This document shows, piece by piece, positions 489-34,616 of a DNA stretch of 37,215 nucleotides (the first letter of the stretch is position 1; every line of letters begins with the position of its first letter). The stretch is taken from positions 1 to 37,215 of the IMG/VR virus record IMGVR_UViG_3300033145_001500; one strand, written 5' to 3'. The position numbers and the translations under genes were made by a program. This stretch comes from a virus. The notes under the pieces are model-generated. The model did not search any database, was not told where the DNA came from, and saw only the letters and a list, made by a program, of their open reading frames with translations.

Positions 489-1214
489 ATGATTATCCAC
501 AAACGTATTAAAGAACTGATTGCATTCGTTGGTACAAGCCATAACCGCGAAGCTCTTACAAAGATTCATGTCACTGACAAAGAATGTGTTGCGACCGATG
601 GACATGCTATGGTTATAATGCCGCGTTCGAATACTCTTAACGACGACGAATATCCGCTGACAAATCCACACATTGACGCTCAATACTGCTTATCCACACC
701 TATCAACCTTGACGTTGACGTGGTAAAGAATGCAGTGGCATCCTTGCCAAAAAAAGCAACATTGCCTGTTCTTAACTTTATACAAGTGGGCACAGAGGGG
801 GATCGGGCGATTATCAACGCGGGGCTGCCTGTCGTACGCTTTCCGGCTGGCGGCACAGACACGGCGTATCCAAACTACAAAGCAGTGATTCCTGATTATA
901 TCGAGCGAACCCCGATCACGTTCGCAGTCGACGGAAAACTTCTGGAAAAGGTCTGTAAACTTGCGCGATTGCATGGAGGCGAGATCAGTCATGGAATAAA
1001 GTTTACAATACCAACGACAAAAAATGAAGTATCTCGTGACAGTCAAGGTGAGGCAGTACTCGATGATAATGGCGATCCCATATTTGAAGCGCGACCAATT
1101 GAGAATTTTAACGAGCCTATTAAATTTTCCATTGAAAACGATGATGAAATGGGTGTACCTGTTTTTCATGGTGTGATCATGCCTTTGCGTCAAAAGTGGG
1201 GAGCAAGCCCTTGA
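489..1214 (+). CDS. DNA polymerase III beta (sliding clamp)-like phage protein
   Basis: The 241-residue product has sequence hallmarks of the DnaN clamp fold. There is an N-terminal ATDGHAMVIMP stretch, like the 'atDghrl' turn of beta-clamp domains. There is a mid-protein YPNYKAVIPDY, like the 'yPdy..viP' motif, and a C-terminal GVIMPLR, like the conserved 'imPmr' terminus. A cellular clamp has three domains and about 370 residues, so this is a shortened form, probably missing one domain. A clamp would tether a polymerase to DNA, and the window encodes a primase nearby but no polymerase. The start at 489 follows AACAGAGAGGC, a moderate ribosome binding site. The clamp reading is family resemblance judged by eye. 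An independent phage protein of similar fold remains possible. Confidence 0.6.
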   Translation: MIIHKRIKELIAFVGTSHNREALTKIHVTDKECVATDGHAMVIMPRSNTLNDDEYPLTNPHIDAQYCLSTPINLDVDVVKNAVASLPKKATLPVLNFIQVGTEGDRAIINAGLPVVRFPAGGTDTAYPNYKAVIPDYIERTPITFAVDGKLLEKVCKLARLHGGEISHGIKFTIPTTKNEVSRDSQGEAVLDDNGDPIFEARPIENFNEPIKFSIENDDEMGVPVFHGVIMPLRQKWGASP

Positions 1215-1256: not shown

Positions 1257-2258
1257 ATGAGTGTACTAATTTACTATAATGAGATAGACCGGTTTTGCAT
1301 AGAATGGCTTGGCAAGCTTATGGACGCCGGAGCTATACCCATGGGAGTTATAGACAACAGGAGTATTGAAGATGTTAGATCAGAAGAACTCGAACCATTC
1401 GACCAATGTCACTTCTTCGCAGGAATCGGGGTATGGGCTTATGCACTCAAACAAGCAGGATGGGGGGATAGGCCAGTCTGGACAGGAAGTTGCCCTTGCC
1501 AGCCTTTCAGCGCGGCAGGCAAAAGAAAGGGGATTGCTGACAAGCGGCACTTATGGCCAGCCTTCTTTCACCTTATTCAAAATGTCAGACCTGTCACAAT
1601 CTTTGGCGAACAAGTTGCAAGTAAGGACGGACTTGCTTGGCTCGATCTTGTACAAACTGACTTGGAAGGAGAGGGTTATGCCGTCGGGGCGGTTGATACC
1701 TGCGCTGCGGGCTTCGGTGCGCCGCACATCAGGCAAAGGCTGTACTGGGTGGCCAACACCGCGCTCAGTGGAGACAGGACATTCAACGGGGAATCCGGAA
1801 CGAGCATTCGACAAGAGGTCACGGATAGAGGATACGGTATTTCTGGTGGGATGGTGCAGTCCGATGAAGAGGGATTACAGCAGGGGCGGAAAGCCCCCAC
1901 GTCCTCAAGACACGGGAGTACCGCTGTCGCAACAAGTCACGCTGGTTTCGTGGCCGGCACCCACAACCCGCGACCACAAGGACGGGGATTGTTCGGAACA
2001 GCTAAAAGCGGGGACGATACTTATGAATGCGCTCGGTCGCCAAGTACTACTAACAAATTCTGGCAAGACTGCGAATGGCTCCCCTGTTCAGACGGAAAAA
2101 CAAGGGCAATTGAGCCCGGCACATTCCCGCTGGCTCATGGGGCTGCCAACCGTGTGGGACGATTGCGCGGTTATGGTAATGCCATTGTCGCGCCGCAAGC
2201 GACAGAGTTCATAAAAGCATTTATGGAGGTAAACCATGAAAACCATGCCCGTAGATAA
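1257..2258 (+). CDS. C5-cytosine DNA methyltransferase
   Basis: The product transfers a methyl group from S-adenosylmethionine to carbon 5 of cytosine in DNA, probably to protect phage DNA from host restriction. Its 333 residues show the ordered C5-methyltransferase motifs: motif I HFFAGIGVWAYAL (52-64), motif IV with catalytic Cys81 in SCPCQPFS, motif VI as GEQV (117-120) in place of the usual ENV, motif VIII QRLYWVA (160-166), and the C-terminal GYGNAI motif (304-309). The segment between motif VIII and the C-terminal motif should be the target recognition region. No restriction enzyme is encoded next to it, so it is an orphan enzyme. By eye the gene is richer in G+C than its neighbours. 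It may have been acquired separately, or its composition may reflect the second frame it contains (1366-2214). Confidence 0.93.
   Translation: MSVLIYYNEIDRFCIEWLGKLMDAGAIPMGVIDNRSIEDVRSEELEPFDQCHFFAGIGVWAYALKQAGWGDRPVWTGSCPCQPFSAAGKRKGIADKRHLWPAFFHLIQNVRPVTIFGEQVASKDGLAWLDLVQTDLEGEGYAVGAVDTCAAGFGAPHIRQRLYWVANTALSGDRTFNGESGTSIRQEVTDRGYGISGGMVQSDEEGLQQGRKAPTSSRHGSTAVATSHAGFVAGTHNPRPQGRGLFGTAKSGDDTYECARSPSTTNKFWQDCEWLPCSDGKTRAIEPGTFPLAHGAANRVGRLRGYGNAIVAPQATEFIKAFMEVNHENHARR
1366..2214 (+). CDS. Overprinted second frame inside the methyltransferase gene
   Basis: A 282-codon frame lies wholly inside the C5-methyltransferase gene, shifted +1 relative to it. It opens at TTG 1366, or more plausibly at ATG 1372, because an AGGAG at 1359-1363 sits 8 bases upstream of that ATG. 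The product is basic, without membrane segments, and has the stretches GLLTSGTYG, YKLTWKERVMPSGR, CTGWPTP, SWPAPTTRDHKDG and SRWLMGLPTVWDDCA. From memory I associate these phrases with hypothetical proteins in other phage and metagenome records that share this methyltransferase, which would mean the second frame is conserved. That is recollection, not a search result. A chance open frame favoured by the composition of this gene is the alternative. Confidence 0.5.
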   Translation: MKMLDQKNSNHSTNVTSSQESGYGLMHSNKQDGGIGQSGQEVALASLSARQAKERGLLTSGTYGQPSFTLFKMSDLSQSLANKLQVRTDLLGSILYKLTWKERVMPSGRLIPALRASVRRTSGKGCTGWPTPRSVETGHSTGNPERAFDKRSRIEDTVFLVGWCSPMKRDYSRGGKPPRPQDTGVPLSQQVTLVSWPAPTTRDHKDGDCSEQLKAGTILMNALGRQVLLTNSGKTANGSPVQTEKQGQLSPAHSRWLMGLPTVWDDCAVMVMPLSRRKRQSS

Positions 2259-2772: not shown

Positions 2773-3549
2773 ATGTGTAATTTTTTATCCGGTATTGTTT
2801 TTCGTAATGGCGACATTCATACATCGCCGTATACTCAGTTACATGAGGATATGATTGAAGATCTCGGTCTTAATGATACTGGATCAGTTCTCAAAAACTG
2901 GCTCAGGGCAGAATATATATCAGACAATTTAGCTGATGCCAACTCTTATAAACTAAAAATTGGCGAGAATTACCCACATTGGGTAACGGATGAACTGTTA
3001 CGGCAGTGGACAGAGCAGTTTAAGACTCGCCTTGATTCTTGTTTTGTTCGAGAGGATAGAACAATATTACTTGGTGGTTGGCATATACTTGTCGGTGAAG
3101 TCACTATTAAAAAATTGGTAAATTCCACCATCGAACACGCTGGGTATGCAACTATCAAATACACTTGGTCTGCAACTATCAAGAACGCTGGGCATGCAAT
3201 TATCAAATACGCTGGGGATGCAACTATCGAGAACGCTGGGGATGCAACTATCGAGAACGCTTGGTCTGCAACTATCAAGGATGCTGGATATGCAACTATC
3301 AAGGATGCTGGGGATGCAACTATCGAGAACGCTTGGTCTGCAACTATCAAGGATGCTGGGCATGCAACTATCAAGGATGCTGGATATGCAACTATCGAGA
3401 ACGCTGGGGATGCAACTATCGAGAACGCTTGGTCTGCAACTATCAAGGATGCTGGATATGCAACTATCAAGGATGCTGGATATGCAACTATCGAGAACGC
3501 TGGGGATGCAACTATCAAGGATGCTGGATATGCAACTATCATTAAATAA
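2773..3549 (+). CDS. Octapeptide-repeat (probable beta-solenoid) phage protein
   Basis: The 258-residue product has two parts. Residues 1 to about 117 form a non-repetitive N-terminal domain (MCNFLSGIVFRNGDI... then WVTDELLRQWTEQF). Residues 118-258 are about 18 tandem copies of an eight-residue unit of the form xATI(K/E)(D/N)A(G/W). Regular Ile and Ala spacing with Gly or Trp at the unit boundary suggests a repetitive beta-solenoid. From general knowledge, several phages encode proteins with an MCNF-type start, a short N-terminal domain and an octapeptide repeat such as 'SSVxAxxN'. This looks like that architecture with a different unit; their role is unknown. It starts after GGGAGGTTGCA. 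The near-identical DNA units mean that copy number may vary, or be miscounted in assembly. Confidence 0.8.
   Translation: MCNFLSGIVFRNGDIHTSPYTQLHEDMIEDLGLNDTGSVLKNWLRAEYISDNLADANSYKLKIGENYPHWVTDELLRQWTEQFKTRLDSCFVREDRTILLGGWHILVGEVTIKKLVNSTIEHAGYATIKYTWSATIKNAGHAIIKYAGDATIENAGDATIENAWSATIKDAGYATIKDAGDATIENAWSATIKDAGHATIKDAGYATIENAGDATIENAWSATIKDAGYATIKDAGYATIENAGDATIKDAGYATIIK
3124..3546 (+). repeat. 24-bp tandem repeat array, about 17-18 units
   Basis: The 24-base unit reads approximately GATGCAACTATCAAGGATGCTGGG, with swaps at the aag/gag, gat/aac and ggg/tgg triplets. The period is a multiple of three and the unit lacks stops, so several other frames on both strands are also open. Units carrying Trp recur about every three or four units, forming a higher-order block of roughly 72-96 bases and implying expansion by slippage or unequal crossing over. 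There are no spacers, so this is not a CRISPR array. Confidence 0.95.
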
Positions 3550-34226: not shown

Positions 34227-34616
34227 TTATAGGACAACACAGTAGTTACCAATAGATATATCACCAATGGTCACAGCCAACACAGTTTCTAAGTTACAAC
34301 CAAAACCAACGGAACCACAACCATCTGAGTTATAACCAGAACCATAACCATCTAAGTTACAACCAAAACCAAAACCAGTTCCTAATTGGCTACAACCATA
34401 ACCAAAACCAACTGAATCACAACCAAAACCAAAGCAAACATCGTTGGAAGGAACCAATTGGTTATAACCAAGACGAGTACTATCAAAAGGAATTGATTGG
34501 TTTACAGTATCTATTTTAGTGGAAGCACGCTCTCTATTGCGCCTGTTATGTATTGAATATCTCTTACTTTTATTCATTGTCAATAACCTGTCAAGTACGT
34601 AGTTTAAAGGGTTCAT
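34227..34616 (-). CDS. Gly/Cys/Tyr-repeat hypothetical protein
   Basis: The 129-residue ORF has an ordinary N-terminal half with basic residues (MNKSKRYSIHNRRNRERAS) and a C-terminal repetitive region of the form GFG(C/Y)..., for example CFGFGCDSVGFGYGC and GFGFGCNLDGYGSGY. It reflects a DNA repeat built from TTGGTTTTGGTTGT. The leader TAGGAATCCTCT gives a modest ribosome binding site. It may be a Gly-rich coat-like or metal-binding protein, or a simple repeat that happens to be open. It lies alone between two promoter-like regions. Confidence 0.5.
   Translation of the reverse strand: MNPLNYVLDRLLTMNKSKRYSIHNRRNRERASTKIDTVNQSIPFDSTRLGYNQLVPSNDVCFGFGCDSVGFGYGCSQLGTGFGFGCNLDGYGSGYNSDGCGSVGFGCNLETVLAVTIGDISIGNYCVVL

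Follow-up and report, generated by a model that had tools for sequence, protein, structure and literature searches.

A conserved coding sequence nested in the +1 frame of a phage C5 methyltransferase gene probably encodes a second subunit that brings target recognition and motif IX to this enzyme

Does an open frame hidden inside a phage methyltransferase gene encode a protein, and, if so, what would this protein contribute? This question is raised by a C5 methyltransferase of 333 amino acids (positions 1257-2258, herein alpha), which is encoded in the stretch of 37,215 nucleotides analysed in the present study (the window), a tailed-phage genome with genes for terminase, portal, capsid and tape measure. 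The original prediction, made from the sequence of the window, was that a real overprinted gene of 849 bases is open in the +1 frame of this methyltransferase, that AGGAG lies 8 bases before its ATG, and that methyltransferase motifs IV, VI, VIII and GNAI are intact in the main frame. Each of these elements was found: the +1 frame (herein beta) was reproduced at exactly 1366-2214 on the plus strand, AGGAG is present at the predicted spacing, and the motifs were located in alpha, with motif VI as the variant GEQV (Table 1). The product of this frame comprises 282 amino acids if TTG 1366 is the start, or 280 amino acids if ATG 1372 is used.

Table 1. Positions of the two overlapping frames and of their observed or proposed elements in the window
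Feature	Position	Strand	Basis
Alpha, catalytic chain of C5 methyltransferase (proposed role), 333 aa	1257..2258	+	PF00145, phrog_363, M.HhaI/M.HaeIII matches
AGGAG, Shine-Dalgarno-like site of beta	1359..1363	+	sequence
Beta, putative overlapping recognition/motif-IX subunit, 280 aa, +1 frame	1372..2214	+	phrog_1008, open in relatives, dN/dS by frame
Beta N-terminal extension, 54 codons; stops avoided, amino-acid constraint absent	1372..1533	+	dN/dS, stop counts
Alpha motif I (FAGIG)	1416..1430	+	sequence
Alpha motif IV (PCQPFS)	1494..1511	+	sequence
LLTSGTYG, start of constrained beta; possible second start TTG 1534	1534..1557	+	fourfold-rate fall, codons 85-96
Alpha motif VI variant (GEQV)	1605..1616	+	sequence
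Beta helix-strand-strand element (SILYKLTWK ... RLIPALRAS), sole confidently modelled part	1639..1716	+	pLDDT
Alpha motif VIII (RQRLYWVA)	1731..1754	+	sequence
Beta WPTP-type repeats, proposed recognition module (WPTP 1750-1761, WCSP 1852-1863, WPAP 1951-1962)	1750..1962	+	consensus, homology to in-frame modules
Alpha linker across recognition region; of low complexity and without constraint, disorder predicted	1764..2057	+	main-frame dN/dS, stop counts, pLDDT
Motif IX in beta frame (LSPAHSRWLMGLPTVW)	2110..2157	+	aligned with motif IX of in-frame proteins
Alpha motif X (RLRGYGNAI), 2 bases after end of beta motif IX	2160..2186	+	sequence

Openness and selection in the two frames

The openness of the +1 frame was compared with chance by permuting synonymous codons with the methyltransferase protein unchanged (n = 20,000). 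The longest +1 open run is 286 codons, against a permutation mean of 109 and a maximum of 281, and no +1 stop occurs in this run, against approximately 7.4 expected. The alternative-frame protein matched 213 phage records in a tblastn search, 160 of them across at least 80% of its length. Because selection by the frame under test was to be avoided, relatives were seeded on the main frame, and 80 loci were gathered in this way, of which 78 were newly fetched and 74 were distinct. Conservation of both frames had been predicted, and frequent stops in homologues with an intact methyltransferase were named as an observation that would count against it; in all 78 newly fetched loci the +1 frame stays open along 83% or more of the gene. 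After column 95 (column 40 being ATG 1372), the 74 distinct relatives contain no stop in the beta frame, against 214.5 expected under synonymous permutation, and in the +2 frame of the same 74 relatives stop depletion was absent. The phrases of the beta frame that had been called familiar, GLLTSGTYG, CTGWPTP and others, are conserved across 209 distinct relatives.

Synonymous depletion and frame-specific dN/dS had been proposed as checks, and both were determined. In 61 disjoint gene pairs drawn from the 209 distinct genes, the main-frame fourfold synonymous rate is about 0.30-0.35 at codons 1-84, drops to 0.03-0.24 at codons 85-312 (about 1509-2192 of the window), and is back to about 0.29 or more past codon 312. 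The dN/dS values of 45 pairs, given here as main/alternative frame, are 0.14/2.9 ahead of the overlap, 0.10/2.05 around 1372-1510, 0.25/0.77 over the remaining core, 1.43/0.35 in the recognition region (0.92/0.52 when the alignment is guided by the main protein) and 0.54/0.34 in the last part, where both frames are constrained. Constraint passes between the frames along the gene, and the main frame is freer to vary in the target-recognition region, as had been anticipated, with the alternative frame under purifying selection. The hidden +1 frame is a real, conserved coding sequence, and the prediction of an overprinted gene is borne out by the permutation, the conservation in relatives and the dN/dS by frame. 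Because the alternative frame is under purifying selection in the recognition region and the main frame contains no stops there (0 observed against 428 expected), we read this region as translated in both frames, the alternative frame for its sequence and the main frame to reach motif X.

Concerning the start of beta, alternative-frame stops are not depleted before column 40, and 19 are observed in columns 40-94, against about 122-129 expected. Of the 209 relatives, 165 have an in-frame ATG that is preceded by a Shine-Dalgarno match of 4 or more bases and is not followed by a stop, against 24.7 expected; initiation at ATG 1372 behind AGGAG is thereby supported. Since both the stop depletion and the conserved Shine-Dalgarno/ATG begin at approximately 1372, the first 54 codons of beta are probably translated yet tolerant of many sequences, and the constrained part of beta comprises 226 of its 280 amino acids. 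A start only at TTG 1534, suggested by the constraint boundary at approximately 1510-1534, was rejected because stop depletion and Shine-Dalgarno/ATG conservation begin at about 1372, and a start only at ATG 1678 was rejected because this codon is found in just 27 of the 209 relatives. Columns 95-97 hold a start codon in 163 of the 209 relatives (78%, where 57% would be expected), and a second, shorter beta product from 1534 is possible.

The two chains and their relatives

Alpha matched PF00145 in Pfam (1.1e-13) and phrog_363 in PHROG (5.8e-80), with M.HhaI among its profile matches and M.HaeIII and M.HhaI among its fold matches. The chain carries motifs I, IV, VI, VIII and X, and no IX-like peptide was found in it from the recognition region to GNAI. 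Between motifs VIII and X, the alpha consensus consists of a variable glycine/arginine-rich stretch and a conserved NGFWRDADWL...VEPGTFPLAHG block, and nothing else. In the structure prediction, residues of approximately 1-174 and 310-333, i.e. the core and the motif X helix, are well folded, and residues 176-262 have a pLDDT below 50 and are predicted to be disordered.

Beta matched phrog_1008 in PHROG (5.5e-28), and sequence searches of Pfam, NCBIfam and PDB gave no useful match. The consensus of the alternative frame contains repeated GWPTPTARD followed by LNPAHSRWLMGLPPEWDDC, stopping just ahead of RLRAYGNAI of alpha, and motif IX of beta is near-invariant in 87 relatives. When the beta profile was compared with 46 in-frame TRD-IX-X proteins, beta residues 34-263 were matched with a probability of 98% (E 2.7e-13), and this alignment puts motif IX on motif IX. 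Modelled alone, beta is poor (pLDDT 60.6, pTM 0.29), with a pLDDT of about 80-91 at residues 71-120, and a fold search with this low-confidence model returned weak, meaningless matches only; such a result might be expected for a chain that needs a partner. These comparisons suggest that beta does have an assignable role: most likely it is a second subunit of this methyltransferase, contributing target recognition and motif IX. The origin of beta as a de novo overprinted gene was considered and rejected on the basis of homologues outside the overlap, namely gp82 of Mycobacterium phage BabyBack and the 46 in-frame proteins.

Related modules are arranged in several ways. Loci in which PTP repeats and WMMGLP are followed by motif X in the same frame (LGNGVVPxQA) were retrieved with a DNA pattern for WMMGLPxG, a peptide resembling motif IX (n = 120). 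Of these 120 loci, 34 were classified as split, automatically and by simple motif patterns: their catalytic ORF terminates before the module, which occupies a separate ORF. A few are single-chain; in L448, motifs IV, VI and VIII, the PTP repeats and motifs IX and X occupy one frame of 373 amino acids. BabyBack gp83/gp82 is a split pair of non-overlapping genes, with gp82 matching beta at 2.8e-10, and the loci L281 and L290 are intermediate, with the core overlapping the module in a different frame and motif X on the module side. In the VEWLMG set, 93 of 120 loci, again classified automatically by simple motif patterns, are nested like the window. The VEWLMG proteins, likewise obtained by DNA pattern, were rejected as stand-alone relatives after a frame check, most of them being overlapped by a methyltransferase frame. 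We give an even chance to the scenario in which the nested pair arose from a monomer, not by classical overprinting but by a shift of the recognition/IX module to +1 with the core and motif X unshifted and with the alpha linker and the beta N-terminal extension as the truly new parts, and in which the nested form then became standard in a large phage methyltransferase family, with beta setting the specificity.

In the T4-like Krischvirus phage KMB43 (L384, 2008-2859), the nested pair is flanked by ribonucleotide reductase genes, and beta is reduced to an open frame of 232 amino acids with one WQTP repeat. The alpha and beta frames of Pseudomonas phage PACT201 (L385, 1785-3033) are both split into several ORFs and are apparently decayed. 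A prophage methyltransferase relative in E. coli Ec1117 (L386, 4863-6032) is present in RefSeq as two partial pseudogene pieces, which adjoin a frameshifted MT-A70 methyltransferase gene.

Competing explanations

Herein, we propose that one DNA stretch gives two polypeptides, a catalytic alpha and a nested beta with recognition and motif IX, which form one C5 cytosine methyltransferase, and we regard this explanation as highly probable. Catalysis would fall to alpha, which bears motifs I-VIII and X and whose recognition region would serve as an unstructured linker up to motif X. Beta would be initiated independently within alpha, at the +1-frame ATG that follows AGGAG, and would bring the WPTP-type recognition module and motif IX, and both chains would assemble as a single enzyme, as in M.EcoHK31I. 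We infer the use of the beta start, the formation of the alpha-beta complex and the recognition of DNA by beta. Several points stand against this explanation: the poor model of beta alone and its lack of a fold match, the absence of sequence matches for beta in Pfam, NCBIfam and PDB, the assignment of the predicted TRD of M.EcoHK31I to the larger chain (PMC3404938), and an amino-acid constraint that begins about 54 codons past the proposed start. The absence of such constraint in the +1 frame at 1372-1510, together with the fact that GC-rich relatives are poorer in stops in every frame, might instead suggest that codon bias and the conservation of the methyltransferase keep the +1 frame open in a gene for a single protein. 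However, this explanation is scarcely credible given the results of synonymous permutation and the fall in the fourfold rate, and the monomeric relatives L448 and L466 have 11-12 stops in their +1 frames (12 in L448); the lower dN/dS of the alternative frame in the recognition region refutes it as a general account.

Two further explanations accept the coding capacity of the +1 frame. Programmed frameshifting could produce one fused enzyme by a shift to +1 after motif VIII, passage through the recognition region and motif IX, and a shift back for motif X, and the resulting order of core (0), recognition/IX (+1) and X (0) would rebuild a monomer like L448. Such a mechanism is very unlikely, needing two efficient shifts, and it is at odds with the avoidance of alternative-frame stops, which sets in at the conserved Shine-Dalgarno/ATG, long before motif VIII, with a main frame that remains open across the recognition region, and with the separate genes of related loci. 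Beta might also be a real protein with a function apart from methylation, e.g. a regulator or a counter-defence protein, consistent with its having no Pfam or PDB match and an uncertain model when predicted alone. However, alpha has neither a motif IX nor an ordered domain for recognition, both of which are carried by beta, and in monomers the homologues of beta form one chain with the catalytic core, so that a separate function is very unlikely.

Known systems, annotation and neighbouring genes

Two-chain enzymes are the closest basis for comparison with the proposed alpha-beta enzyme. M.EcoHK31I has the target YGGCCR and M.AquI the target CYCGRG. Lee, Kam and Shaw reportedly described in 1995 that the small gene of M.EcoHK31I is nested in the large one and read in a different frame, as is beta in alpha; the smaller chain of M.EcoHK31I reportedly comprises 176 amino acids, compared with the 280 (226 constrained) of beta. 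Both enzymes are two-chain C5 methyltransferases; the larger chain of M.EcoHK31I contains motifs I-VIII and X and its predicted TRD, the smaller chain contains motif IX, and the break in M.AquI falls after motif VIII (PMC3404938). The window pair resembles M.EcoHK31I in a large chain with motifs I, IV, VI, VIII and X but without IX, which the small chain would supply, and differs in carrying the recognition module in beta instead of in the larger chain, to which the TRD of M.EcoHK31I was assigned (PMC3404938), and in being phage-borne with no restriction enzyme recognised beside it. M.EcoHK31I was sought by name among the plasmid and E. coli matches and was not found; by its architecture, the window pair most likely belongs with this enzyme, matched by description rather than by sequence. 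M.AquI is similar in having two chains, and L281, L290 and BabyBack gp83/gp82 resemble it, but its small chain also has motif X, which in the window lies in alpha. The monomers M.HhaI and M.HaeIII share the core and fold of alpha; in these enzymes and in Dcm, however, the recognition domain and motif IX are in the chain of motif IV, whereas in the window they are in the other frame. The PHROG families of alpha and beta are both labelled only DNA methyltransferase, with nesting and the division of motifs unstated, and a literature search found no description of nested phage methyltransferase pairs. The nested principle is already known from one bacterial enzyme, M.EcoHK31I; what is new is how broadly it occurs, the evidence that constraint swaps frames, and the series of monomer, split and nested forms.

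Among the records opened, only the alpha-like gene is listed for E. coli E21, a Salmonella plasmid, epsilon15 and AeroV_348, and both genes are listed for K1ind2 and PhiXhv-28. Judged from the loci compared, the nested arrangement is widespread in phages and usually unannotated. The beta gene of coliphage K1ind2 (L002, 2980-3777) carries the label of a putative Mte8-like protein, a name which, we presume, may come from the Swiss-Prot entry for M.EcoHK31I. As annotation usually gives one chain, an "orphan" methyltransferase could be cloned minus its recognition subunit and seem dead. The likeliest use of the pair would be to shield phage DNA from host restriction. Moreover, the gene is an exceptionally clear natural example of constraint passing between two frames along one DNA stretch, and it has relatives in which the module shares a single frame, occupies an adjoining gene or is nested. 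The pairs might be used to test methods of detecting overlapping genes.

Other ORFs in the window were also observed. Directly upstream of the pair, an ORF of 241 amino acids (489-1214, plus strand) matched a RusA-like resolvase profile (3.4e-11) and a DNA polymerase processivity factor (5e-4); these matches are mixed and weak, and the protein is clamp-like by eye. An ORF of 258 amino acids at 2773-3549 on the plus strand has many near-identical short repeats in its C-terminal part (ATIKDAGYATIENAGDATIENAW...), and long ORFs are open across this repeat in several frames on both strands; it looks repeat-expanded and has a weak match to a baseplate profile and no other. On the minus strand, an ORF of 129 amino acids (34227-34616) is glycine/cysteine-rich and repetitive in one half (GFGCDSVGFGYGCSQLGTGFGFGC...).
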